The notes under the pieces: model-generated
Told to the model about the DNA's origin: nothing
Databases searched by the model: none
What the model saw: only the letters and a program-made list of their open reading frames with translations
Part shown: one piece after another, positions 30,262 to 57,428 of the stretch
Layout: every line of letters starts with the position of its first letter
Numbering within the stretch: position 1 is the stretch's first letter
Position numbers and translations under genes: made by a program
Source: a virus
Length of the DNA stretch: 64,000 bases
Direction: 5' to 3' (one strand)
Virus record (IMG/VR): IMGVR_UViG_3300028920_002946
Coordinates: 1 to 64,000 of that record

Positions 30262-30416
30262 CAGGGTTTCATCCTCTTTATCTGCGCCTCTGCCGTTTTG
30301 ATTTCCTTCCTCACCATTCGAGCGAGGAGGTTGAGAAGCATCCGCAACTCGTCCTCCAGAAACCCTTTGGACGAGTCATCAACCGTCACCAATTTCCATT
30401 TTGGTCTTTCGCTCAT
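30261..30416 (-). CDS. Small 51-aa helical protein between giant and 582-aa gene
   Basis: MSERPKWKLVTVDDSS... KRMKP. The frame extends upstream, but the ATG at 30416 overlaps the stop of the giant gene as ATGA, the usual coupling here. One amphipathic helix (FLEDELRMLLNLLARMVRKEI) and a basic tail. No known family. Its overlaps on both sides argue it is really translated. Confidence 0.65.
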   Translation of the reverse strand: MSERPKWKLVTVDDSSKGFLEDELRMLLNLLARMVRKEIKTAEAQIKRMKP

Positions 30417-33400
30417 AGCCCTGTGTCCCACACGGTTCTTTGATCGTCCTCGTTGGACTCTATCCTCTTTCGCAGCTGGTACGCCCTCTGATCGGCGCCG
30501 TACTCCCTGTGCATCTTGAGGAAGAGCCAAAGATGCTTGTTCGACACGAGCGCCTCGTCCACCACCCCCCGGCGTATCTGCGCGTACCTCGTGTTGCGGA
30601 GCCACCCAAGAAAGTTTTTGGAATCTATGGCGTTCGGGTTGTTCTCGTCATACCTCTCGGGAGTGTAGTAATCCGTCTCCCCCTCCCAGGGCTTGCCGAG
30701 CCTCCTCTTCACGTTGTTCAGCTGCGTGTGAAGGTTGTGGTCGGATACTTGCACGAACTTGATATCGCCCATGACGCCGAAATAGACATGGGACGGCTCG
30801 TTGTACGGCAGAGCCTGCGAGCTCTCCTCCGGCACCCCGTAGGGGACGGCACTGACTTTTATCGGCAACACCTGCACCCCGACCATGCCGGACCCGAAGT
30901 CACCCCTAACGGCATCGATCCATTCGTGGAGATCCTTGGTGTCCAAAGGCAGATCCCCTTGGTAATCGCCATCGGCCACGATTCCCACGTAATCGCTGTA
31001 GATGGTGGCATAGGAGGGGTTGAACATGTTGAGCAGGCGCATCCCCACCAAGCCCCTGAAGTCGGCCGTCAGCTCGACCGTGGCGCCCATCGGGAGGAAC
31101 GACGGCGAGGGCACGAGCAGGCGCGACTCGGCGACCCCGTAGTCGCCGGCGACCTCGGCCGAAACCCCCGTGAGCGCCGTGTCCGAGTTGATCGCCGCCG
31201 CGAGCCCGTCGAACGTGTATCCCGTGAGGTCGTAGGTCTCCGTCGCATTCAGACGGGCGTATCCGGTGGCCGCGAGGCTCGTGGTCACATCCAGAAGACC
31301 GGAGGCGTCCTCCCCCGAATAGTCCCCGTTGAACACGGACGACGGGAATATGGGGTTGAATGCGGGGTCGGCATAGGGCTTGAGGGCCGATATGTACGAT
31401 GCCAGCGACAGGATGGTGTAGTTGCCGGAACTTATGTCTATCGCCCCAGACGAGTACGGTCCGGTGTAAGTGACCGTGCACGACAACGTTATCTGCGACC
31501 TTGCCGCCGGGATGCTGAATGTCGCGTTCGACACGGCATAGCCGACGCCGCCGGAGGAAACCGACAAGGTGAACGCGGCCGTGGGCGCCGTCTGCTTGTA
31601 CAGCTGGGTCGCGACACCGGACAGCGACCCGGACGCCTGCACGAGATCCGTGCTGTCGTCGTCGTTGCTCAATGCCGCCGTGAATATCGCGCCGCCCACC
31701 CCGGGGAAGGTCTCCAGGTTGATGGCGTTCACCAACTCCGATATGGTGTCGTAGGAGGCGTCCGAGAAATCAAACGTCCGGCTGTACTGGTACGGGTACG
31801 AATAGGTCGCCGAGAGGGTCAGCGTGTCCGCCGCGTCGTTCACGACCATCGAGGACGCGGAGAACGTGTAGCCGTCCCCTTCGCCGACACCCAGGACCCT
31901 CACGTCGGACGAAAGGTTCAACTGAAGGGAGCTGAAGACGGTGTCCGGATCGGCCGGGTTGTAGGGGCCGTCGGGGACGATCTGGTATTCTGTCGACTCG
32001 GTCGAGCGGAGTCGCAGGGCGACATCCTTCCGAAGCACGAAATCGCGCAAATCGGCCTTGGGGACATCTTGCTTAAAGTCCGGAAGGTATCCGTATTCGA
32101 AGTAGCCCGGGTCGCGCGCATCGTCTCGCGTGTACCGCAGATTCGCGAAGAACCAGCTGCTCACGATGGGGTAGGAGTTTATCCTATCCACCAGGTCGAT
32201 GAGCGACTCCCTGTCGGGCGCCAGCGGGTCGCCCGAACCCGCCAAAGGCACCGCGATGTCAGCGACATTCGCACTACGGAAGTGCATGTGGTTGTCTATC
32301 ACCTCGTATTCCCGCCGGCCCTCCCCGTCCTCGTCGTCCCAGCAGTACAGGTCGAAGGCGACTATGTCCTGCCGCAGCCCGAGCGGGAACTTGTTGAGGG
32401 ACGTGTCGTGCGCCGCCTCCGGCCCGTCCATGAGGAACCCGGCCGTGGCATCCTCGCTGTACCTCTGGGTGCCGACGCTCAGTTGGACGTCGAGGCCCTT
32501 GCGGACGGAGAGCCTTTGCAATTCGTATCCGACGACGTAGCCGTACTTGTACTGCTCAACCCCGTTGTCGAACCGCACCCCGAAGTTCTTCTTGATCGGC
32601 ACGTACGAGGCATGGATCTCGTAGCTTTTGAACTCTCCTTGGATCGCGGGGTCTCCTATGAGTTCCGCCTCGAACAGCTGCAGGGCGGCCCCCGGCGTCT
32701 GGTTGCCCTCGCTGTCGAACCTCGCGGCGTTGATGGCCGACACGAGGTCGTTTATAGTGTCATGCTCGCGCAGATCTATCTGCAGGGCGGTTTCCGACAC
32801 GCCCCTCCTGACGAGCCTGAGGTATTTCAGGATGGTGACGCTCGGGGGATCCATCTGCTTTATATCCTCGAACTCGGACTCGGTGAGGACATCGCCCGCG
32901 TCTATCTTGTCGATGACCTCCTGCGGACCCATATACTCCTTCGTGTCGCCCTCGTCCATATCCACGAACTCTACGAACATGGACGCGTCCGGGCAGCGTA
33001 TGTTGATGACCTCGAAGAAGTCGGACGGCAGCGTCTCCCACTCCCCGGCGACGGGAAGCCCCTCTATGGCCCTCTTCGCGAGGTTGCCACCGTCGGTGTA
33101 CACGGGCCAAACCCAATAAGGGTTCTCGGGGTCGTCCTGGTTGTCCGTCGGGAACTTGTCCTCGATCATCTTGTCGAGGAACAGAATCCTCGGATCCGAC
33201 CCCCTATGGTCGGCGACGTTAGTCATCGATATGTAGTTCGGGTCAGACAGCGACAGGGCCGTCGTCGACCGCACCAGCAGTTCACAGCTGGCCGCGTCGT
33301 ACGGGTAGTGCGGGTACACAACCCCGACGAACATTGGCGTGAAACCATCGATGTCCGATGAGTTGATGAAGCCCGCGAGCGCATCCAAGCTGATGTAATC

Positions 33401-36400
33401 GCCCCCCTCGACGTCCTTCAATGAGAACGTGCGGAGATAAGGCGACACAACCGCATCCGGATCCGTAGGATCCGACAGGACGGCGTAGACAAGCATGGAG
33501 TCGCCCGCCACGGTCACCGATGCGGAGTCCACACGGTACCGCCCCGGATCCGAAACATCGAACCGAAGCGCGCGCGACTCCACAAGCCCGATCTCCAGCT
33601 TCCTCTGGCTCTCGTACATCGCCCTCGCGGTCCTCTGGTGCATGACCCCTATGCTAAGCCCCGTCACCCACCGGACATAATCGTTCTTCCAATCATCGTT
33701 GTTCTGGTAGTTGATGGCCTTGAACTCCTGCAGGGCGCCGTAGAACGACTCATACTTCGAGTACGCCGCCGACGCGTCCCGGTAGGATTGCGCTATCTGC
33801 GGCGTGGCGTCGTCCTCGTCGTGCACCCCGTCGGGCTTGATGACATCGAGGAGCGGGCCCCGGTCTCCGTAGCCCGCATACCCGCCGATGAGGAAGTACA
33901 GCGCGCGCTCGTACTTGACGAGCCGGGCGGCGAGCCAATCCGACACGCCCGCCGGCTCCCCCTCTTGGTAGTAGGCAAGATATCCCTTGTAGGCGCTCAC
34001 GTTGTCGAGCCGGATCCTGCCCATGGAGTACGCCCGCGCGATCTTGTCGTTGTAGTCGTACAGGTCGCGCAGGATGAGTTCCTCGAACTGCCATGCCTGC
34101 TTCTCCATGAGCAGCCAGCGGTAGACGTTGTCCGGGTCGTAGAAGTTCCTGTAGACCTGGTTGCCCACGAACCCGTACTCCTCCGAGACATCGGTGGCGA
34201 GCGGGTCGCCGTCATTGTCCAATTCGATGATGAGGCGCACCCACAGGTCACGATCCCTGGCCCTAAGGACGTACCCCTCGCGGTAGCCGCCCCTTTCGGA
34301 GACATCGTAGATGCGGTCAAACGACATATAGAAGTACTTCTCGAAGCCGTCCGTGTCCGCAAGTGCGAAATCGTTCTTGTAGAGCGCGTTCTGCGTCGAG
34401 GATATCTTGCGCTCCTCGATGAAGCTTAGATTCCTGAGATTGACCTCAAGTTCCTCAAGCTTCACGAACGCCAACGTGTCCTCGTCGTACCGCCCCGCCT
34501 GCAGGCGAACGTTCTTGTTGAGTTCGGGGATGCCGGGGAAAAGAAGGCGCAGGAAGTCGATCAAGGAGAACTTCCGTATCCTGTCCTTGTGCTTGACGTG
34601 ACCCTCGACCTCGCCGCCCTCGATGCGGGCGCCGTACATCCCCTCGTCGTCGAACATCGGGAACGCCTCGGCAGACGAGCGCGTGACCGACACGACGCGC
34701 CCCTCCCCGGGAAGCGCGGAATTGAATTGGTCCTCACTCGATGTCCGCTTGTCGTTCCTATCAATATTCACGCTGTATTGAAAGACACCGAGGGAGTTCT
34801 GCTTCAGCTTGTAGGTCTTGACGCCCTTCTCGGAGAGAGCCCTGTCGAGGGTAATCATCTCGTAGGTGTACCCCAGGCGCGACCCGTCGGGGCCGGATAT
34901 GATCGATTTGATCTCGTACTTGTTGTCATATCCCAACAGCCTCATCCTGTCGCCGACGGACACCCTCTTCAGCCAAGAGTATTTGTCGTCGTTCGCGCCG
35001 AAGGTCCTCTCGTCCTCCGGTATTTCGACGTTGTAGTAGGCGATCAGCCTGTCGTTGGTGTTGCGCAAAATCACGTGGTCGAGGTTCTGCGTCCAATAGG
35101 GGGTCACCGACTTTATTTTTCCGACGGTTTCCACCCTCCCGTCCGCATACTTGTACTGCACGTTGAAGCAGTAGACCTCGTTGTAGAGCCTGTACTCCGT
35201 GCCGAATCTGGGATAGTAGTGGGGGGCCTGCTTGTCGTAGCCCACAGGGAAGAACTTCGTGTACGTTGCAGGCACGCGCTCTATCTCCGCGTCCGTCGTC
35301 AAGGTGTAGTCGTCCGTGTCCTCCACGTACGCGTCCTGCAGGGTCAGCCTGCCGTCGACCTCCCCCACGGCGTTGCTGCGCGCGAACTTGAAGCCCATCC
35401 CGAGCTGGAGTTCGGCGCTGAAGGCCCGCAGGCGCCTCTTGTACCAATGGTAGAACTTGAGGAACAGCTCTTTCTTGATCTCCTCGTCCTGCAGTAGGTA
35501 TCGGTTGCCAACCACGCCCGCCGCCCAATTCGGCACCTGGTCGTCGGTGGGGGCGGTGTCCGACCCCTGCCCGTTGCCCGACCCCACGCGCTCCAGCAGT
35601 TCCTCGATCTGCGGGACGACGACAATCTCCGAGAAGTCCCTCTCCGTCAGCTTCTGGAGGTAGAATTGGTCGATGTTGAGATAGTCGAGGTAGACATCCA
35701 GCCTCGACCCCGCGGGCAGATTCGTGAAGTAGCGGCACGACACGTAGACCGACTCGCCCTCGTCCTCGGATCGCAGATCCCTGCCCATGTAGGACATCGC
35801 GAAGCGATCCAAATCCTCGATGGCCCCTTCCAGCGTCACGAGTCCAGCGTCGATGCTGTAGTCCTCGTCAAGAGTGAGGCGCCGGAAGTTCAGCGGCCCG
35901 AGTTCCTGCCACGACTCGAACCCCGTCGTCACGTGCACGTAGGACGGCAACCCCTCGTATCCGCCGTACGCGGCGCTCGGATACGTGTGCGACCAGTCCC
36001 CGTCTCCCACCAAACTGGCCGCGCCGGCGGAATCGACCGAGAACGGGAAATTGCCGGCGACAACCGACTCCACACGACCGATTCCCTCGTTGGCGAACTT
36101 GAAAAGGTCGCCGTAGTCCGAATAGGCCACGGTGGTGGTCTTGGTCTGCGACGCGCCCATCACATCGGTCACGGACTCCCTCAGCGTCACGCCGGAGGAT
36201 GTCACAACCATCGAGGCCGACCCGGTGTACCCGCCCGGCGCGGAGTATGAAACCCGTAGCACCCCGGTCGCCACATACGCGACCGCGGGTAGCGCGGTCG
36301 TCCCGATCGGGGCGAGGCGATATCGATCAAAATCGTCGCCGTCAAACAGATCCCTGTATGAGTCCGGCATCGTCACCGTGAAGGGATTGCCCCCCTCGAG

Positions 36401-39400
36401 GGACTCGACCCGGCCTATGGCATCCACCAAACCGTTCAGACCGTCATACTCCGAGTATTCCAGGACCGTCGTTTTCGTCTTGAACCCATCGACGGTCTCG
36501 ACGAGCGTCACAGACGACACCCCGGCCTCCATCGTGGCCGCGCCCGTGTGCGTCTCGGGGGCGGTGTACGACACCGACATGTAGGGCTGGGTCGGATCGG
36601 AGCCGAGGGGCACGGGCAGCGACGACTGTTGCACCCTGTAACCGGGCCTGCCGGACACCTTGTAGCCGGAGGGCAGCGCGGGGGTCACCCCCAGAGTCAT
36701 CGAGCCGCCGCCGGATTCGACGGAGGAAACGGATCTGACGATCCCGCCCTCCAAACGCAGAAGCGTGCCCGCGACAATGTTGCTCCCCAAGTTGCCCCGG
36801 AACGTAAGCGACGCGCCGTCCTCCGACCTGCTCAGCGGGTCGTTGGGCACGTCCTCCCAAACCACCCCGCGCTTGAAATAGACGGAGGGGTCGAGCATGT
36901 TCTCGGAGAAGGGCTCCAAGACTCCCACGGACGAATACTGCCTCCCGTCCCGATCCTCGACCGACACGCCCCCGACGCCCATATACTGCAGGGTGTTGGA
37001 GGGGGCGTCGGAAAACGCAAGGAGATCGCCGCCGACGAACCTCCACGTCAGATCCGCATCCCTCACCGTGAAGGACGACTGCCCGCGGTACGTGCGCAGG
37101 AGCGACCAGCGGAACAGCTCCGGACCCACAGTCAACGTGTAAGGCAGCCTTTGCGTTTGGAAGTCGTCGAACTCCTGCACCAAGTCGGCGCTGTAGGTGC
37201 CGCTCGCGAGGTAGTACTGCTCCGAGGACTCGCCCGACGGCGAAATCGTGAACGGGAGGTAGTCGGGGACCCTCGGGCCTATCGTCACGTTGTCGTTGTA
37301 CGTCGACTTGGTAGCCTGTATGGCGAGGGCCAAGTCATGGACGGTGGCGTAGTCGGATTTGCGGAACACGTACGGCACCGGGTTCGTCGTGCCGCCCACG
37401 GTCTCCGTGAGTGACACCGACTCAGGATCCACGAAGACGGTACCCGAACCCTCAAACCCCTCGGGCGCCTCGTAGCTGAGCGTGAATGCGGGTTCGGGCG
37501 TGTCATCGAGGATGGAGTTTCGCATGATGAGCGTGGTTTCGCCCACGCCGTAGACGGGCGTCCTCGAATACACCACCTCGGAGGGGGACCCCTCCTGCAG
37601 CGGGGGCTGTATGCTGATGACGGCCTGCCCGTCCTCGGCATCCACCGACATCACGCTGTAGACATATTTTCCGCCCACCATGAGAAGGGAGTCGACCTTG
37701 ATGCCCTGCAGTATCTCCAGCACCCCCCCGCTGAACGTCAAACTCTCCGCCCCGACAAGCGGCTCGCCGACCAAGGACGACGCGTCCGGCATCCGCTGCC
37801 ACGAGACGGGGCCGTCAAGGACGTGGAAGACCGGCGCGTTCAAGTCCTCGGGGAAGGATCCATGGACGGCGACCCTGGTGCCCTCGTCCCCGTACGCCGA
37901 TGACCGCACGCGGTAGTAGTAGACGGCGACCGGGTCGCGGTTCTCTATGCGCAGGACGGAGTCGGGCTTGATAGAGTCGGTGCGGTCGAAACCGTCGATA
38001 AGGAACTCGCTGCCGCCGGCGGGCAGCACGGGGTAGAATATCTGGATCGGCGCGTAGGGCAGCACCTCGGACTCGAAGCTGTAGGTGGCCACGACCGTGT
38101 CGTCGGGCAAGATCTCCAGCGTGTTTCGCTCCGCGTCCAGGGCGATCTGCCTGTTCTGGTCGGTGTACGCCGCGCCGCCGGTGTCCAGAGCCGCGCCCGA
38201 CCCCAGCACTTTCGCGTAGACGGGCGAGCCCATGAGTATGGACCCGCTGAAGGACACCCTGCCGGGGTCGCCGGGCTTCTTGAAGTAGTCCCGCACCGGG
38301 ATCGACACGACGGGGTTGTTGACCTTGAACAGGTACTGCCCGTCCTCGACGGCCTCCAAGGCGTCATCGATGACGGTCATGCGGTAGTTGCCAACCTCGC
38401 CCGGCTTGGACTGCAGTATGCAATGCATCTGCGACAGGGGCGTGTAGGTGGCCTCCAAGGACAAAACGTCCTCCGAGTAGACCGAGGGGTCGACCAGGGT
38501 GACCCTGCCGGTGAAATGGCTTATCTCGAAGTCCTCGCCCTCGGTCAAAACCGAACTCCCCGTTTCGACCCTCCCATATTGATCCGTCCTGCTCCACTTC
38601 TTGACGATGCTGACCGAGTCCGCGAGCACCGGGTACTTGGAGAGCCGCGGCGCGGCGCGGTCGATCTTCTCCACCTCGACATCCTCGCCCTCGACGTAAT
38701 AGCTGACCAGGACGGACTCGCCCTTTTTTAGCGGGGTGGTCATGCGGGCGGCTCCGGACGTGTACTCGATCATGTAGTCCACGCCGACAACCATGTTGTT
38801 CTCGTCCGTGTCCTCGTAGTAGACGATGTCCCCGTCCGGCACCCCGAACAGGCCCGTCACCCCCGGTATCACCAAGTCATCGGGGTTCCGGACATCCGCG
38901 GCTCCGACGCCCTTGATCACGCTGATGCCGTTCCATATCAGTTCCCGCGGGACGGCGACGTGGTCGCAGGGCTCCTCCCTGTTCGCATGGTCAATGAATA
39001 CCAGCGTGCCAGCGTCGTAGTCCATGAGGTACTCGGAGTACCTCGGGACGTCGCCCTGGCCCACGGACACGGAGTCCGTTCCGTAGATGATCCTCTGCAC
39101 CGGCTTGCGCGCGGCGGATCCGCTCGATTCGACCTCGACCGCCTTCGAAACGGCCACGATGCCGCCGACATCGCCGTTGATCCCGGTCACCTGCAGTTCG
39201 TCGCTCAGGGTGCCCAAGAACTTGATGTACGCCGACAGCCTCTCCTCGTACGGGGGGTAGGGGTAGGAGAACTCGGGCGAGTTGCTGTAGTTGACGACGT
39301 AGTCCTCGAACTCCGTCCTCCGCCGCACCTCCCCCTGCGCGTCGCCCCAATAGACCTGCAGGCTGGCGTGCGGGTACGGCAGGGGGCTGAGGCCGACATC

Positions 39401-40075
39401 GCTGTACTCCTGCGTGCTGCTCTCGATGACGGTCTTGTGGACGCTGCCGACGGTGAAGAGGTCGGGCAGCGACGGGCTGGCCCCCTTGTTGAACTGTATC
39501 TCGATGCCGGTCGAGAACTCGATGACCCCCGAATAGGCCACGTACGGCCCCATGGCGTCCGCGCCGGTCGGCGTCCACTCGCCCTTTTCCTTGTCGTAAT
39601 AGAACGGGACCCCCGTCTCCCCGCCCTCGTAGGCCTCGTACATCGCGCCGTCAAGTTTGGTCCTGCGCACGCTGCACTGCCCGGTGTAGAGATCCGGGCC
39701 GGATTCGGATGACTTCGCGTAGTTCTCCGTAAGATAGACGTCCTGGCCGTCGATCCCGGTGACCGTGTAGAATCTAGTGTCCCCGTCATGGCGTATGGAG
39801 TCCCCGTTCCCGGGGGCGTACGGCCCGGAGAACCCAGAGGCGACGAAGCTGCCGTCTGTGAAGTCGGCGGTGCCCTTGTAATCGTTCCTCTGGAGGGACG
39901 ACTCAATGAGGTACTGCGCCTCGACGCCGCGCTCGCCCGAGTGGGTGGTCGCCTCGTCACCGGGGTTCACCGACAGGCCGGCCGTGCTACGGGCGTTCTT
40001 GACGCCCGAGCGCGCGCCGCGCACGACGGTGGGCTCAAGATCGAGCGATTTCAATCTGAATACTTCCGATCCCAT
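30413..40075 (-). CDS. Giant 3220-aa virion protein with repeated small domains
   Basis: 3220 aa, largest gene in the window. The N-terminal 1300 residues are beta-rich with extended YTPL/SYxAP strands. A small alpha/beta module recurs at about 866, 1168 and 1276 (SYEAPEGFEGSG, SYTAPETHTGAA, SYSAPGGYTGSA, each followed by a Y-x-D-L-x-x-A-I helix) and, in a related form with a T-I-x-x-L-V-x-A-I-N helix, near 2420, 2760 and 2870. Regions around 1460-1560 and 1950-2200 are mainly helical. The C-terminal 250 residues again are mixed, ending DDQRTVWDTGL. No enzymatic motif was found. ATG at 40075 directly follows the previous TAG. Its place after the spike genes and before the wedge genes suggests a baseplate arm or giant fibre; uncertain. 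Confidence 0.75.
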   Translation of the reverse strand: MGSEVFRLKSLDLEPTVVRGARSGVKNARSTAGLSVNPGDEATTHSGERGVEAQYLIESSLQRNDYKGTADFTDGSFVASGFSGPYAPGNGDSIRHDGDTRFYTVTGIDGQDVYLTENYAKSSESGPDLYTGQCSVRRTKLDGAMYEAYEGGETGVPFYYDKEKGEWTPTGADAMGPYVAYSGVIEFSTGIEIQFNKGASPSLPDLFTVGSVHKTVIESSTQEYSDVGLSPLPYPHASLQVYWGDAQGEVRRRTEFEDYVVNYSNSPEFSYPYPPYEERLSAYIKFLGTLSDELQVTGINGDVGGIVAVSKAVEVESSGSAARKPVQRIIYGTDSVSVGQGDVPRYSEYLMDYDAGTLVFIDHANREEPCDHVAVPRELIWNGISVIKGVGAADVRNPDDLVIPGVTGLFGVPDGDIVYYEDTDENNMVVGVDYMIEYTSGAARMTTPLKKGESVLVSYYVEGEDVEVEKIDRAAPRLSKYPVLADSVSIVKKWSRTDQYGRVETGSSVLTEGEDFEISHFTGRVTLVDPSVYSEDVLSLEATYTPLSQMHCILQSKPGEVGNYRMTVIDDALEAVEDGQYLFKVNNPVVSIPVRDYFKKPGDPGRVSFSGSILMGSPVYAKVLGSGAALDTGGAAYTDQNRQIALDAERNTLEILPDDTVVATYSFESEVLPYAPIQIFYPVLPAGGSEFLIDGFDRTDSIKPDSVLRIENRDPVAVYYYRVRSSAYGDEGTRVAVHGSFPEDLNAPVFHVLDGPVSWQRMPDASSLVGEPLVGAESLTFSGGVLEILQGIKVDSLLMVGGKYVYSVMSVDAEDGQAVISIQPPLQEGSPSEVVYSRTPVYGVGETTLIMRNSILDDTPEPAFTLSYEAPEGFEGSGTVFVDPESVSLTETVGGTTNPVPYVFRKSDYATVHDLALAIQATKSTYNDNVTIGPRVPDYLPFTISPSGESSEQYYLASGTYSADLVQEFDDFQTQRLPYTLTVGPELFRWSLLRTYRGQSSFTVRDADLTWRFVGGDLLAFSDAPSNTLQYMGVGGVSVEDRDGRQYSSVGVLEPFSENMLDPSVYFKRGVVWEDVPNDPLSRSEDGASLTFRGNLGSNIVAGTLLRLEGGIVRSVSSVESGGGSMTLGVTPALPSGYKVSGRPGYRVQQSSLPVPLGSDPTQPYMSVSYTAPETHTGAATMEAGVSSVTLVETVDGFKTKTTVLEYSEYDGLNGLVDAIGRVESLEGGNPFTVTMPDSYRDLFDGDDFDRYRLAPIGTTALPAVAYVATGVLRVSYSAPGGYTGSASMVVTSSGVTLRESVTDVMGASQTKTTTVAYSDYGDLFKFANEGIGRVESVVAGNFPFSVDSAGAASLVGDGDWSHTYPSAAYGGYEGLPSYVHVTTGFESWQELGPLNFRRLTLDEDYSIDAGLVTLEGAIEDLDRFAMSYMGRDLRSEDEGESVYVSCRYFTNLPAGSRLDVYLDYLNIDQFYLQKLTERDFSEIVVVPQIEELLERVGSGNGQGSDTAPTDDQVPNWAAGVVGNRYLLQDEEIKKELFLKFYHWYKRRLRAFSAELQLGMGFKFARSNAVGEVDGRLTLQDAYVEDTDDYTLTTDAEIERVPATYTKFFPVGYDKQAPHYYPRFGTEYRLYNEVYCFNVQYKYADGRVETVGKIKSVTPYWTQNLDHVILRNTNDRLIAYYNVEIPEDERTFGANDDKYSWLKRVSVGDRMRLLGYDNKYEIKSIISGPDGSRLGYTYEMITLDRALSEKGVKTYKLKQNSLGVFQYSVNIDRNDKRTSSEDQFNSALPGEGRVVSVTRSSAEAFPMFDDEGMYGARIEGGEVEGHVKHKDRIRKFSLIDFLRLLFPGIPELNKNVRLQAGRYDEDTLAFVKLEELEVNLRNLSFIEERKISSTQNALYKNDFALADTDGFEKYFYMSFDRIYDVSERGGYREGYVLRARDRDLWVRLIIELDNDGDPLATDVSEEYGFVGNQVYRNFYDPDNVYRWLLMEKQAWQFEELILRDLYDYNDKIARAYSMGRIRLDNVSAYKGYLAYYQEGEPAGVSDWLAARLVKYERALYFLIGGYAGYGDRGPLLDVIKPDGVHDEDDATPQIAQSYRDASAAYSKYESFYGALQEFKAINYQNNDDWKNDYVRWVTGLSIGVMHQRTARAMYESQRKLEIGLVESRALRFDVSDPGRYRVDSASVTVAGDSMLVYAVLSDPTDPDAVVSPYLRTFSLKDVEGGDYISLDALAGFINSSDIDGFTPMFVGVVYPHYPYDAASCELLVRSTTALSLSDPNYISMTNVADHRGSDPRILFLDKMIEDKFPTDNQDDPENPYWVWPVYTDGGNLAKRAIEGLPVAGEWETLPSDFFEVINIRCPDASMFVEFVDMDEGDTKEYMGPQEVIDKIDAGDVLTESEFEDIKQMDPPSVTILKYLRLVRRGVSETALQIDLREHDTINDLVSAINAARFDSEGNQTPGAALQLFEAELIGDPAIQGEFKSYEIHASYVPIKKNFGVRFDNGVEQYKYGYVVGYELQRLSVRKGLDVQLSVGTQRYSEDATAGFLMDGPEAAHDTSLNKFPLGLRQDIVAFDLYCWDDEDGEGRREYEVIDNHMHFRSANVADIAVPLAGSGDPLAPDRESLIDLVDRINSYPIVSSWFFANLRYTRDDARDPGYFEYGYLPDFKQDVPKADLRDFVLRKDVALRLRSTESTEYQIVPDGPYNPADPDTVFSSLQLNLSSDVRVLGVGEGDGYTFSASSMVVNDAADTLTLSATYSYPYQYSRTFDFSDASYDTISELVNAINLETFPGVGGAIFTAALSNDDDSTDLVQASGSLSGVATQLYKQTAPTAAFTLSVSSGGVGYAVSNATFSIPAARSQITLSCTVTYTGPYSSGAIDISSGNYTILSLASYISALKPYADPAFNPIFPSSVFNGDYSGEDASGLLDVTTSLAATGYARLNATETYDLTGYTFDGLAAAINSDTALTGVSAEVAGDYGVAESRLLVPSPSFLPMGATVELTADFRGLVGMRLLNMFNPSYATIYSDYVGIVADGDYQGDLPLDTKDLHEWIDAVRGDFGSGMVGVQVLPIKVSAVPYGVPEESSQALPYNEPSHVYFGVMGDIKFVQVSDHNLHTQLNNVKRRLGKPWEGETDYYTPERYDENNPNAIDSKNFLGWLRNTRYAQIRRGVVDEALVSNKHLWLFLKMHREYGADQRAYQLRKRIESNEDDQRTVWDTGL

Positions 40076-45232: not shown

Positions 45233-46573
45233 TCACTCCGTGACAACCACCACCGCGCCGCCCGACCCGGCCCACATGGCAAGTTCGTCGCGAAGATCTT
45301 TGCCCTCCATGATGATGCATCCCCGCGAGGCGTTAAGGTTGCCCGGGCCGTATCCCCCATGGATGCGGAACACGCTCCGCCCGTATTGAAAGGTGTTGTT
45401 ATCACCGACGGGGGTCAGCGTAACGGTGGAGTCGGACGGGGCGCCATTGTTTCTGTCCCTCGTCTCCGGCTCTATGACCCAGACCCCCCTCGGTATGGGG
45501 CCGACCTCGACCACATACTCGAGCGTGGGATTGTTTATTCCCTCGCCCTTCCCGGAGTAGCAATCCTTCGTCCAGAGCACCTTGCCCGTCTTGTCGGTCA
45601 CCACGAACTCGCCCGTGGACTGAGAGTACGTGCATATGATTTCCGGGTCAAGATCCCCGGGGATGTCATGAACCTGCCGGGACACGACGGACGGATCCAC
45701 CGGCTCGTACGTCCGGGCGTTCCCGGGGGTCGACGGCAGCGGCGGCACGTTGTAGTACTTCTGCATCTGATCCTCGTTCATGCGCACGGTCTTGGCCAGC
45801 TCCATGTCGCCCCCCTGGATGCTGACCTGCACGTTGCCGACCTTCTCGTTCCCGTCCTTGCGGAGATGGCCGTCGAAGGAGTCGCCACGTAGCCCAGCCA
45901 CCACGAACTCGAAGTTGTAGTTGATGCGGTACGGCGTGCTCGCGGTGTCGTCCAGCGTGAACGTGTTGAACGCGCCCACGTGGTCGGCGCCGTCGTAGGA
46001 AACCATGACGAAGTCCATGACGTTGATGACCCTGCTGGTGCCGTCGTTCCAGAGGGTCTGGTCCGCTGTGTCCGTCAGGAAGTAGGCGCCGTTGCGTTTG
46101 AAGAACGACACGAGGGCCAGCAAGTTCGCGAACTCGAGGGAGTTCCGGCGGTTGTAGTTCGTGAGGCCGCCCGTGCGTATCCGCAGCCCGCGGACGGTGT
46201 TCGCGACCTCGTTCGGGTTGTAGTAGAACCCTGCCGAACTGCCGGAGACGGTCAGCGTCTGGAGCTGCTGGCCCCAATAGGTGGTCACCCAGCTCCTCCG
46301 CGTGTACGCGTTCTGGACGGCGTGGGTGTGGCCGTACTGTATGTCGCTCGGGTTGACCATCAGCGTGAGCGGGTATCGCGCCTCGCCCGTCTCGACGTTA
46401 TAAAGCGAGATTACGAACGGTATGTAGTTCGCCGGGGGCCGCATGGCGGACATGAAGGTCGTCGAGTACCCCGGATAGGTCGTGCCCGCCGGGTCGACGT
46501 GGTAGTCCCCGCCCTGGGATTTGATGAGTCCCTTCAGCGACTCCGTCGTGTCGAGATGGTACGGCACCGCCAT
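45233..46573 (-). CDS. Tail hub protein with C-terminal L,D-transpeptidase-like domain
   Basis: 446 aa. Residues 1-240 are related to the 275-aa protein upstream (PLTLMVNPSDIQYGH, QTLTVSGSSAGFYY, a Y-x-I-N-Y-N-F-E-F strand). Residues 310-446 look like the DUF2778/Tlde1-type L,D-transpeptidase fold: FVVTDKTGKVLW, CYSGKGEG, VGPIPRGVWVI, VFRIHGGYGPGNLNASRGC. H405 and C419 are the expected catalytic pair (HG-x11-SRGC). This implies a virion-borne enzyme that cuts or exchanges peptidoglycan stem peptides during DNA entry, the role filled by lysozyme in T4 gp5. The 7-nt gap leads into the hub gene. Activity is inferred from motif only. Confidence 0.8.
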   Translation of the reverse strand: MAVPYHLDTTESLKGLIKSQGGDYHVDPAGTTYPGYSTTFMSAMRPPANYIPFVISLYNVETGEARYPLTLMVNPSDIQYGHTHAVQNAYTRRSWVTTYWGQQLQTLTVSGSSAGFYYNPNEVANTVRGLRIRTGGLTNYNRRNSLEFANLLALVSFFKRNGAYFLTDTADQTLWNDGTSRVINVMDFVMVSYDGADHVGAFNTFTLDDTASTPYRINYNFEFVVAGLRGDSFDGHLRKDGNEKVGNVQVSIQGGDMELAKTVRMNEDQMQKYYNVPPLPSTPGNARTYEPVDPSVVSRQVHDIPGDLDPEIICTYSQSTGEFVVTDKTGKVLWTKDCYSGKGEGINNPTLEYVVEVGPIPRGVWVIEPETRDRNNGAPSDSTVTLTPVGDNNTFQYGRSVFRIHGGYGPGNLNASRGCIIMEGKDLRDELAMWAGSGGAVVVVTE

Positions 46574-46574
46574 C

Positions 46575-47402
46575 TTACTTGCCCCCCGCTATCGATCCTT
46601 GCCGGTACGTGGTCTTCTCAGACTTGAACACCATCGTGTAGGTCATCCTGAAGGGGGAGGCGCTGTCCTCCGACAGGTCGAACGTGTCGAGGTAGCCCAT
46701 GCACGACAGGTAGTCGAAGACCAGGTTCACGTACAGCCTCTCCTTTATCAGCCCCTCCCGGGGGTGGTTGTTGATGAACCCGGCGTTGTCCGGGTCGCCG
46801 AGGAACCCCTCGACCACGGGGCTGACGTAGCCCTCCATCCGCAGCGTGCCGACGCTCCCCTCGTATGTCCTGTTGTCCTGTATGATGAATCCGTCGTAGG
46901 TGAAGACCGTCTTGAGCTCGCGCAGGAACTTGTAAGCCTCGGTGAGGCCGCGCCTCTCGGTCAGCAGGCCCGGGAACTTGCCGTTGAGGGCGTACCCGAA
47001 GAAACTAAACGACGACCCCGACAGGGTGAGAAGGTCGATCTCGTCGCCCCAATGTTCCTCCACCCAACGCGTCATGGTCTGATATCTGTTCGTCATCTTC
47101 GCCGAGTTCACCGTGATCTGCTCGGGGTTCGGGGACATCTTGATGGCGGTCACCACCAAGCCGCTCCTCATGACTATGCCGTAGGGCTGCATCGAGGAGT
47201 CCATCATGCGCAGGAACATCGGCATCTCGTTCGGCGTGCGGCGGAGCCAGGGGCGTATCTCCCGCTCCCTGGTGAGGCCGAGGTCGGCGTTCGACACCTT
47301 CCGCATCATAGCCCGGGACTCATCGAAGTATAGAAGCCCGCCCGTGACCGGATCCTCCATAAGGATCCGCTGCTGGCTCGGCGTCACGTCCTCTATCGAC
47401 AT
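46575..47402 (-). CDS. Tail hub/tube-initiator protein, paralogue of LDT-hub N-domain
   Basis: 275 aa. It shares the order of elements with the N-terminal half of the next protein: MSPNPEQITVNSAK, LLTLSGSSFSFFGY, a helical region with FLRELKTVFTYDGF, a long loop and a final FRMTYTMVFKSEK strand. Such proteins follow the tape measure in many contractile tails and cap the distal end of the tube or bind the tape measure. Gap to the tape-measure stop region is 4 nt. Exact role not recognised. Confidence 0.7.
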   Translation of the reverse strand: MSIEDVTPSQQRILMEDPVTGGLLYFDESRAMMRKVSNADLGLTREREIRPWLRRTPNEMPMFLRMMDSSMQPYGIVMRSGLVVTAIKMSPNPEQITVNSAKMTNRYQTMTRWVEEHWGDEIDLLTLSGSSFSFFGYALNGKFPGLLTERRGLTEAYKFLRELKTVFTYDGFIIQDNRTYEGSVGTLRMEGYVSPVVEGFLGDPDNAGFINNHPREGLIKERLYVNLVFDYLSCMGYLDTFDLSEDSASPFRMTYTMVFKSEKTTYRQGSIAGGK

Positions 47403-54479: not shown

Positions 54480-57428
54480 CTAGATCGAAGTGCTCATGTT
54501 GAGTGTGACAAGTATCCAATCAAGCTCCGGCACCGGCGAGTAGTAAGCCTCGACGTCCACCGTGCTTATGTCCGTTGCATTCGGCGTGACCTTGATCCCC
54601 TTGTACTCGACGATCAGCTCCGACTGCTTCAATGACTTGAAGTACGCACCCACCGTGTCCTTGATCTGCGGCAGGATCCTCGGCAGGTTCTTCGAGCCGA
54701 TGTACCTGCGCAGCACCCTGCGGAGGCCCTGCTGCACGAAGTGCTTGACCTCGACGATGCGCGGGTTCCTGGTGAGCTGGTTGCTGAGGTCCGTCGTCAG
54801 GTAGAACATGATGTCGATGACGGGGTTCCTCTCCTCCAGGACCGTGCAGCCCGCCTGCGCCACCTGCGCCGCCGTGACGTTGTCGAGCCTGCGGTACAGC
54901 CTCGTGAAGCCCGTCACGCTCTGCCCGGTGAGGGGCGTCGCGATGTCGTAGGCCGGCGAGACGTCCAGGCCCGCGACCGCCGCGGCCACGATCGACCCGT
55001 CCATGAGGTACTCGACGTCGTTGCCGTACACGTCCGTGATGGTGTACACCGCCGCGTCCGGATAGACCGCCGTGACCTTCTCGGTCTTCAGATTCTTCAC
55101 GCTGGAGATGACCGTGTCGGGATCCGTGCCGATCTCGAAGCCGATGATGCTCGTGCGCTCGTTGCGGTAGCGCTTGCTCGACTGGATCGCGTTCGATGTC
55201 TTCAGATACGAATGGATCTCCGAATCGGTGCTCAACGGCTGGATGAGCGCGGGCCTGAGGCCGTTGGCCAGAGGCTCGTTGAACTCGTCGATTCCGTCGA
55301 TGTAGTCCTGGACGCTCGCGTCCGTGCCGCCCGACACCTTCTGGATCTGCTTCACCGCTATGGCCCGGGCGCCGTTCTTGAACGCCAAGTCGCACGCGAC
55401 GGTGACTCGGTTGTTGACGTCGTAGGGGCCGTACAGCTTCTGCACCTGGCCCATGTCCGTGACGTACTTCACCGTGAAGTCGATCTTGTTCTTGTCGAAC
55501 GTGACGTAGTAGATGTCGCCCACGTCCGGCTCGTTGCCGGACTTGTTGTAGGTGTAGATGAGCACCGTGTCGTCAGTGTTGTCCTCGGCGCCGCCGTCTG
55601 TCGTCAAAACCGTGAGATTGACTCCCGGGATGACGCGCACGATGTTCGTGTTGGCGGTGATGTAGTACTTCGCCGGACTGGTCGCCGAGGTCGGGTCGCC
55701 CACGTAGTAGTAGACGTAGGTGCCCACGCCGGGCGCGAACCCGGTGTCGGCGAACGCCACCCTGAACCCGGTCGCCGGGTCGATGTAGGTCTTCCCGAGG
55801 TAGCCCTTGTTCTGGTTGTAGGTCGTGACCGAGCCGGTCTTCCCGTCCGTCGTGAAGGCGGGGCCGACCTTCGAACTGACCGTGAAGCCGCCCACGCCGT
55901 CGAAGGTGACCTTCACCCTCTCGACCTGCGCGAGGAGCGGGTCGACTTCGGTGTTGACCGCGCCCGCGCCCGCGTAAACCGGGGTCACCGTGCCGCCGGC
56001 GGCCTGCTGCACATCCAAGGCCCACCCGTTGAGGTTGGATTGGATCGTGTACTTGCCGACCGTGGCCGCCCCCGGGACCCTGTTCGTCAGAGTCCAGGTG
56101 TCGTCGCGGAGGTTGTTCTCGTGGTACGTGACGTAGACCTTCTCCTCCATCGCCTCCGAGGGGGCCGTCGCCAGCGTGATGGTCTGCCCGCTGATGCTCA
56201 GGACGGGCACAGCGCCGGCCGTCTTGGCGGCTGACCATGTGGCGCCCACGTAGGCGATGATGTCGTCGGGGTCCTCGGTCGCTTTCCCGGTATCGTCTCC
56301 GTTAACCGGCGCGCTCGGCAACGTGAATTCCTTGTTTGTGCCGGAGTTGATCTTGTTGCCGTTCGCGTCGTAGACCGGGTTGCCGGATCCGTCCGTCTTG
56401 TAGACGACCGGGGCGGCCACGCGGCCGTAAACGTATGTGTCGACAATCGACATGAACACATTGTCGTTGAGCGCATCGGATCCCACCGTGTAAACGCCCG
56501 CCTCCTGGCTGTAGGAGTTGCCCCAGTGGATGGCGGGGGAACCCGTGGCCGGGTCGGTGCTGAGCACGCAGTCGTTGCCGATGGAGTAGTCGTTCGTGTC
56601 CTGGCTCAGGCCGGCCTTGATCAGCCTGTTCACCTGCGCGGCGGGGAGCACGTCGAACGTGTCCTGCCAGGTGTTGGTGAAGTACCAGACGCGGACATCG
56701 TCATCGGTATCAGGGGCGGTTTCGAGCGCGAACATGCCGTCCGACCCGTCCAGGTCGGTGATGGTCGCCTCGATGTCGTTGACCGTGACCTTGATGATCT
56801 GGACGGTCGCCTCGACCTCGTCGCCCGGCGAGCCCGGGGTCGGGTCGTAAAGGATGACGACTGTCTTGCCGATGTCGGTGTCGGTCGCGGCGCGGCCGTC
56901 GTTGTCGCCCTTGACGATCCTGGCGTTCTTCACCTTGAACGACGTGTTGCTCCCGTCAGCCTGGTCGGAGAGATCCTCGTCCTCGACGTAGGTGTCGCGG
57001 CGCTTCATCCAGTAGTTCGCGCGCACGTCCGCCCCAGTCGGGGGTATCCTCTGCAGGGTGACCTCGCCGGTCAGCCCGTCGACCGAGTTGACCGCGACGG
57101 GCACGCTGTCGACGGTCACGATGACCGCCCGGGGGTCGTCGGAGACCGTGCCGGATCCGTCGCCGGTCACGATCGGGAAGTATTCGACGTTGAAGTTCTT
57201 GTTGGTCCCCGTGAACTTCGCCGATTCGTCCTCTTCGAGAATCAGATTGTCGGCGATCGCCGAAGATCCGCGCGGCACCTCGAAGTTGGAGATCCTCGTC
57301 TCCTCGGAGGATGTCCCGATGATAGCGGGGATCCTCACGTCACCGGCCGCGGTGACTCCCGGCGCCTCTAGCCTTGTCTCCACGATCACAGACGGGAAGA
57401 CAAAAACTTCAAGTGGTCCTATGGCCAT
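54480..57428 (-). CDS. Contractile tail sheath protein, very long
   Basis: 982 aa, well above the usual 400-700 aa. The C-terminal 130 residues are diagnostic: VLEERNPVIDIMFYLTTDLS, RRVLRRYIGSKNLPRILPQIKDTVGAYFKSLKQSEL, then VDVEAYYSPVPELDWILVTLNMS, the conserved core that links sheath subunits. The N-terminal 600 residues have many beta-strand insertions (VKVTFDGVGGFTVSS, VRVWYFTNTW), so a bulky outer domain is predicted. AAGGAGAAGG precedes ATG 57428. A 136-nt leader carrying a perfect palindrome copy precedes it, suggesting its own strong promoter. Confidence 0.88.
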   Translation of the reverse strand: MAIGPLEVFVFPSVIVETRLEAPGVTAAGDVRIPAIIGTSSEETRISNFEVPRGSSAIADNLILEEDESAKFTGTNKNFNVEYFPIVTGDGSGTVSDDPRAVIVTVDSVPVAVNSVDGLTGEVTLQRIPPTGADVRANYWMKRRDTYVEDEDLSDQADGSNTSFKVKNARIVKGDNDGRAATDTDIGKTVVILYDPTPGSPGDEVEATVQIIKVTVNDIEATITDLDGSDGMFALETAPDTDDDVRVWYFTNTWQDTFDVLPAAQVNRLIKAGLSQDTNDYSIGNDCVLSTDPATGSPAIHWGNSYSQEAGVYTVGSDALNDNVFMSIVDTYVYGRVAAPVVYKTDGSGNPVYDANGNKINSGTNKEFTLPSAPVNGDDTGKATEDPDDIIAYVGATWSAAKTAGAVPVLSISGQTITLATAPSEAMEEKVYVTYHENNLRDDTWTLTNRVPGAATVGKYTIQSNLNGWALDVQQAAGGTVTPVYAGAGAVNTEVDPLLAQVERVKVTFDGVGGFTVSSKVGPAFTTDGKTGSVTTYNQNKGYLGKTYIDPATGFRVAFADTGFAPGVGTYVYYYVGDPTSATSPAKYYITANTNIVRVIPGVNLTVLTTDGGAEDNTDDTVLIYTYNKSGNEPDVGDIYYVTFDKNKIDFTVKYVTDMGQVQKLYGPYDVNNRVTVACDLAFKNGARAIAVKQIQKVSGGTDASVQDYIDGIDEFNEPLANGLRPALIQPLSTDSEIHSYLKTSNAIQSSKRYRNERTSIIGFEIGTDPDTVISSVKNLKTEKVTAVYPDAAVYTITDVYGNDVEYLMDGSIVAAAVAGLDVSPAYDIATPLTGQSVTGFTRLYRRLDNVTAAQVAQAGCTVLEERNPVIDIMFYLTTDLSNQLTRNPRIVEVKHFVQQGLRRVLRRYIGSKNLPRILPQIKDTVGAYFKSLKQSELIVEYKGIKVTPNATDISTVDVEAYYSPVPELDWILVTLNMSTSI

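Follow-up and report, generated by a model that had tools for sequence, protein, structure and literature searches.

The gene for a 446-aa protein, situated among the tail genes of a large contractile-tailed phage, raises the question of how this phage breaches the cell wall at entry, and which of its tail proteins carries the enzyme for this purpose. The window analysed here, i.e. the whole stretch of DNA under study, comprises bases 1-64000 of a 182,677-base IMG/VR virus record. Within this window, the genes for the tape measure, a 275-aa paralogue, the 446-aa protein, the hub and the spike follow one another in that order (Table 1). A 3220-aa protein is encoded downstream of the spike (30413-40075, minus strand), while collagen-repeat matches were found in four window proteins (best 1.4e-64) and a YCF48-like propeller match in one.

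Table 1. Features of the tail region and of the 446-aa protein, in window coordinates
Feature	Position	Strand	Basis
Predicted tail-tube initiator with C-terminal Tlde1 (L,D-transpeptidase-fold) domain, 446 aa	45233..46573	-	ORF (ATG start), translation, Pfam, PHROG, structure models, Foldseek
Tail-tube-initiator domain (predicted fold), residues 1-285	45719..46573	-	Orthologue identity, Foldseek
Tlde1/DUF2778 predicted catalytic domain, residues 312-446	45236..45640	-	PF10908 4.2e-11, model pLDDT 81, Foldseek
H405 codon, predicted catalytic histidine	45359..45361	-	H in 50/50 phage Tlde1 sequences
C419 codon, predicted catalytic cysteine (S416-R-G-C)	45317..45319	-	C in 50/50; S416 and G418 also invariant
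275-aa paralogue of initiator domain	46575..47402	-	Own-genome search, alignment
Probable tape measure protein, 1119 aa	47407..50766	-	Size, position upstream of initiators and hub, order as in LR745208
Baseplate hub (gp27-like), 839 aa	42707..45226	-	PHROG 400, PHROG 196, orthologues
Spike, 667 aa	40696..42699	-	Weak Pfam matches Gp5_trimer_C 0.0075 and Phage_base_V 0.19 only
Probable sheath	54480-57428		Contractile-tail module; Phage_sheath_1C match in window scan

The C-terminal Tlde1 domain and its relatives

The C-terminal region of the protein was matched by the Pfam family Tlde1_dom (PF10908) over residues 337-425, with 43.8 bits against a curated cut-off of 30.1 (4.2e-11), and the 446-aa protein was also matched by PHROG 24118 (1.7e-18). 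The YkuD family (PF03734) scored below its curated cut-off (17 bits versus 23.4; E 0.0092), with most of the profile covered, and tblastn returned stand-alone phage DUF2778 proteins at 8e-9 to 2e-4. The motifs GPIPRGVW, RIHGG and SRGC, to which a sequence-only reading of the window had drawn attention, are indeed located at residues 358-365, 403-407 and 416-419, respectively, with H405 preceding C419. Among 2361 other ORFs, a large share of them non-genes, a motif of the type HG-x(6,20)-[ST]xGC[IVLMF] occurred once. Given the Pfam, PHROG and tblastn scores and the rarity of this motif, the match is not due to chance, and the domain that had been described as L,D-transpeptidase-like is confirmed, at the sequence level, as a member of the Tlde1/DUF2778 family.

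Alignment of 50 phage Tlde1 sequences revealed 18 invariant columns, all 18 of which are retained in the 446-aa protein; the invariant positions include Y339, N347, P361, G363, R399, F402, H405, G406, S416, G418, C419 and R428. The protein departs from the Tlde1 consensus at G407, where D or N is found elsewhere (HGG for the usual HGD), and its SRGC differs from the (S/T)HGC form published for Tlde1 effectors. Position 417, occupied by R here, is variable among phage relatives (S in 18, H in 15 and R in 4 of 49). By alignment, and on our own reading of the motifs, R399, H405 and C419 would correspond to R115, H121 and C131 of Salmonella Tlde1a, of which R115 has been linked to shared exchange activity (PMC9638812). 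A decrease at the domain boundary in third-position GC (0.92 to 0.80) was considered as a sign of recent acquisition and rejected, since 12% of the windows in neighbouring genes are equally low.

For structure prediction, the N- and C-terminal domains were folded separately, because N-domain orthologues and stand-alone Tlde1 proteins, when aligned together, were misaligned. The AlphaFold2 model of residues 294-446 attained a pLDDT of 80.7 and a pTM of 0.79, with H405 inside a strand (402-408) and C419 immediately ahead of another (420-423). When this model was compared with the PDB using Foldseek, YkuD (4a1i) ranked first (1.4e-5, probability 1.00), and each of the best 50 matches was an L,D-transpeptidase-fold protein, so that the fold assigned by the sequence-only reading survived a check in which a model lacking it would have counted as refutation; a phmmer search of PDB sequences gave chance matches only. 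The listed fold matches include Csd6, Pgp2 and Bd1075, which are L,D-carboxypeptidase-type enzymes. The amidase DpaA is also among them (PMC12729407). Since the matches mix such enzymes, the fold alone decides nothing among endopeptidase, carboxypeptidase and transpeptidase activity.

Stand-alone Tlde1/DUF2778 proteins were detected by tblastn in 57 large-phage records from Erwinia, Dickeya and Yersinia and in one Citromicrobium microvirus. Nearly all of the 80 viral Tlde1 loci are single-domain genes of 118-135 aa, and the few longer ORFs resemble frame read-through. In P2, the lysis genes are located between genes L and R. A stand-alone Tlde1 gene was found in one locus (L022:6813-9544) between P2-type genes L (head completion) and R (tail completion), where no other wall enzyme was detected, and such positions suggest that phage Tlde1 proteins may be able to act as lysins. 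Stand-alone Tlde1 genes near a P2-type gene L were also observed in L011, L019 and L026, while in the 4.4-kb Citromicrobium microvirus the Tlde1 protein (gpB) is encoded directly after the capsid gene (L005:1328-1738).

The domain also occurs as the C-terminus of a polymorphic-toxin-like RHS-repeat protein in a Terriglobia MAG (L202:315-1922), and L,D-peptidase domains have been mentioned among PVC-secreted and polymorphic toxins in comparative genomics (PMC3482391). T6SS ancestry of the present domain was considered and not upheld: a tree of 105 Tlde1 domains cannot place it, as it sits on a branch of 2.51 with no supported neighbour. T6SSs are not the sole plausible source, since stand-alone phage Tlde1 genes are common and some stand at the endolysin position. 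The relation to T6SS effectors is, as far as sequences can tell, limited to shared family membership.

The N-terminal domain and the enzymes exchanged behind it

The front half of the protein had been taken for a tail hub, an identity that is rejected because the fold search points elsewhere and the adjoining gene encodes the hub. The 839-aa product of that gene was matched by PHROG 400 (tail protein, 7.7e-7) and PHROG 196 (baseplate hub, 1.4e-3), and its orthologues show 24-48% identity. Foldseek matches of the AlphaFold2 model of residues 1-285 comprised chains of the phi812 baseplate (9euf_M, 3e-8), the PVC (6j0n_b, 3e-7) and the AFP (6rao_G, 2.6e-6), all with a probability of 1.00 but with TM-scores of 0.3-0.4; the PVC and AFP chains are Pvc7 and Afp7. 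Other PDB matches were to Algoriphagus 7aeb_M, diffocin, pyocin R2 and Mu 9ki1 (gp43), and these best matches are all contractile-tail baseplate proteins. The tail-tube initiator family PF23980 scored below its curated cut-off (16 bits versus 27; E 0.01). The domain thus combines a predicted tube-like fold with a gene position between tape measure and hub that is conserved in relatives, and appears to fold like tail-tube initiators of the Afp7/Pvc7/Mu gp43 type. The moderate quality of this model (pLDDT 60, pTM 0.56) and its low TM-scores do, however, count against the role proposed below.

In phage Mu, gp43 is a hexameric initiator in which a tube-like domain precedes a helix-rich part that contains a LysM module, and a helix-rich or LysM-type C-terminal part is also present in the initiators of Milano, A-1(L) and pyocin R2 (PMC11915804). 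The 275-aa protein encoded next to the 446-aa protein is a paralogue of its initiator domain (6.7e-5 over residues 69-138 in an own-genome search, plus alignment) and probably forms another ring where tube and baseplate meet.

Initiator orthologues were looked for in each of 80 viral loci retrieved by a hub profile, and more were obtained with an N-domain profile, the scan with which yielded 24 loci. In total, 16 distinct close orthologues were identified at the position between tape measure and hub, with 31-46% identity to the N-domain. Their alignments begin near residue 8, or further on where a sequence is partial or divergent, and end at about 265-290, except for L097, where the alignment to the 446-aa protein extends to residue 343.

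Beyond this conserved half, the orthologues carry unrelated domains. SLT transglycosylases were identified in L093 (4.3e-30) and L095 (6.5e-28), and M23 peptidases by Pfam in L092, L094 and L169 (3.7e-11, 1.2e-6 and 1.3e-4) and by homology to the Pfam-assigned ones in L091, L097, L101, L102 and L179. A tail lysozyme (Phage_lysozyme2) was matched below the curated cut-off in L090 (4.7e-4), which has homologues in L106 and L089. The C-terminus of L107 appears M15-like by eye (HYQGLAADF ... HFHIEY), an assignment for which HMM searches gave no confirmation, and searches assigned no family to the C-termini of L099 and L105. Tlde1 similarity was absent from the C-termini of all 16 orthologues.

In a tree of the N-domains, SLT, M23 and lysozyme versions occur together in one supported clade (96/92) of four members, and six changes of enzyme type are required across the entire set. 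Since the structural half is conserved and the C-terminal domains are unrelated, the C-terminus of the initiator is, judged from these comparisons, an exchangeable wall-enzyme slot, which is filled here by Tlde1 and whose occupant has been replaced repeatedly.

In the 485-kb phage LR745208, the gene order up to the hub is the same, with a tape measure gene followed by genes for proteins of 259 and 405 aa and a related hub, and the initiator is without an enzyme domain. The hub of this phage (L004:13871-18928) contains an internal glucosaminidase-like domain (PHROG endolysin 1.4e-9, Pfam 1.2e-4), and its wall enzyme is for this reason placed on the hub. Two more distant initiators of 625 and 730 aa (L118:695-2569 and L124:6784-8973) carry a long extension ahead of the tube-like domain, which appears glucosaminidase-like by eye and gave no match to Pfam or PHROGs.

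A second Tlde1-initiator fusion was found neither by a single-protein scan of viral contigs nor by N-domain scanning of genome contigs, and none of the 24 loci of the N-domain profile scan carried Tlde1. Scanning viral and bacterial contigs for Tlde1 likewise revealed no tail fusion, the bacterial frame search having missed 23 of 79 loci. No published fusion of a Tlde1 or L,D-transpeptidase domain to a tail protein was found in the open-access literature, most subscription journals lying outside this search. The novelty of the fusion is accordingly provisional, and the absence of another Tlde1-bearing initiator from these scans also weighs against the wall-opening role considered next.

Predicted action at the cell wall

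It is fairly probable that the 446-aa protein is a tail-tube initiator whose C-terminus bears the peptidoglycan enzyme of the virion and opens the wall at entry. By homology, the initiator part would form a ring between tail tube and hub, present in six copies in the case of Mu gp43, and a short linker would join this ring to a Tlde1-family thiol enzyme, for which H405 and C419 are the predicted catalytic residues. During infection, the baseplate would carry the enzyme domains to the wall, where they would attack peptidoglycan stem peptides at the bond that links the third (L-centre) residue to D-residue 4, so that the mesh would be loosened around the tube.

The strongest reason for reading the Tlde1 domain as the wall-breaching enzyme of this phage is the swapping at the slot. 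Orthologues in which this position is occupied by wall hydrolases of well-known classes strengthen the wall-opening role that the sequence-only reading had put forward. That reading had furthermore reported no lysozyme in the spike, and none is detectable: neither the spike nor the hub was found to contain a lysozyme or other enzyme domain with Pfam or PHROGs at E <= 1. SLT, M23 and lysozyme families were also absent among the matches listed for the other scanned window proteins, the tape measure included, and the Tlde1 domain of the 446-aa protein is the only one in the whole genome.

Conversely, the known activities of the family do not point directly to wall opening. Tlde1a, the one member studied biochemically, acts mainly by L,D-carboxypeptidase activity and D-amino-acid exchange at the fourth residue of tetrapeptide stems, with few crosslinks formed, and these activities do not directly open crosslinks (PMC9638812). 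If the tail domain were confined to such trimming and exchange, its action alone would leave the wall closed, whereas endopeptidase activity, which has been reported for some YkuD-type enzymes, would open it (PMC12729407).

It is on this ground that an active enzyme that leaves the wall closed has to be weighed, although we regard it as unlikely. Such an enzyme would trim D-Ala from stems, exchange D-amino acids or form a covalent link between peptidoglycan and the tail or some other protein, and would thereby block repair or anchor the tail. The carboxypeptidase and exchange activities of Tlde1a are in line with it, as is the retention of R399, the counterpart of the exchange-linked R115, and other YkuD enzymes are known to attach proteins to peptidoglycan or to release them (PMC12729407). 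Against it stand the relatives, whose slot holds cutters of glycan strands or crosslinks, and the stand-alone phage Tlde1 gene at the lysis position of a P2-like element.

A variant in which entry itself relies on transpeptidation appears quite unlikely. The stem-peptide bond would here be swapped for one that joins the stem to the enzyme itself, to a different tail protein or to a free D-amino acid, and this exchange chemistry would undo wall crosslinks or anchor tails; if true, phages would have a way through the wall that has not been described for them.

Because solved initiators end in a LysM or helix-rich module (PMC11915804), the domain could conceivably serve structure or binding alone. 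A catalytically dead or binding-only module of this kind, comparable to the LysM part of Mu gp43 and similar initiators, would grip peptidoglycan or brace the baseplate. The marked divergence of the domain (branch 2.51), which shows HGG in place of HGD and SRGC in place of SHGC, agrees with it and counts against the wall-opening role. We nevertheless consider it improbable: H405, S416, G418, C419 and R399 are all kept despite the divergence, R at position 417 is shared with some phage relatives, and the orthologues bear catalytic rather than binding domains.

That the protein is a lysis endolysin without a role in entry, placed among tail genes by chance, is highly improbable, as the stand-alone Tlde1 genes at the P2-like lysis position are outweighed by the single ORF with a tube-initiator domain, by its location between tape measure and hub, and by a separate Amidase_2 gene (162743-163195) that could serve lysis.

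Comparison with known systems

With Salmonella Tlde1a, a T6SS effector, and the PF10908 family, the C-terminal domain shares a Pfam score above the curated cut-off, the L,D-transpeptidase fold, the order of H and C, the S-x-G-C motif and an arginine six residues ahead of the catalytic H. It differs in being fused to a tail-tube initiator, in having R instead of H before GC and in its H-to-C distance of 14, as found in phage relatives. Unlike the gene for Tlde1a, that of the 446-aa protein lies outside a T6SS-effector context: it is flanked by paralogue, tape measure, hub and spike genes, no cognate immunity gene adjoins it, and no T6SS family occurs among the Pfam matches listed genome-wide (beyond the window, 25 of 41 families). 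The stand-alone DUF2778 proteins of Erwinia/Dickeya jumbo phages, P2-like prophages and the Citromicrobium microvirus contain the same domain at about 30-45% identity, but are mostly single-domain proteins of 118-135 aa, and a recognisable tail fusion was found in 0 of 80 viral loci.

Mu gp43 and Milano gp25 (and, by fold, Afp7 and Pvc7) resemble the 446-aa protein in the N-terminal tube-like fold, the position between tube and hub and the presence of an extra C-terminal module. This module is LysM or helix-rich in Mu gp43 and Milano gp25, whereas it is a wall enzyme of exchanged type here and in most close relatives.

The Tlde1-bearing initiator belongs with the virion-associated lysins and is no new type of system. 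As in the lysozyme of T4 gp5 and other tail lysins, a wall enzyme is contained within a tail structural protein by the hub and spike. Here, however, it is located on the tube initiator, not on the spike or tape measure, and has an L,D-transpeptidase fold instead of being a lysozyme, transglycosylase, amidase or M23 peptidase. While spikes, hubs and tape measures are already known to carry tail lysins, the tube initiator is a plug-in socket in this group of large phages, in which at least four recognisable enzyme classes are exchanged behind one conserved structural domain. Its Tlde1 version would bring into a phage tail an L,D-transpeptidase-fold class that is used as a T6SS toxin domain, and this divergent, predicted L,D-specific enzyme is a candidate lysin. 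One socket with different chemistries furthermore offers a direct comparison set for which peptidoglycan bonds matter at entry, and can show whether the choice of enzyme tracks host wall type.
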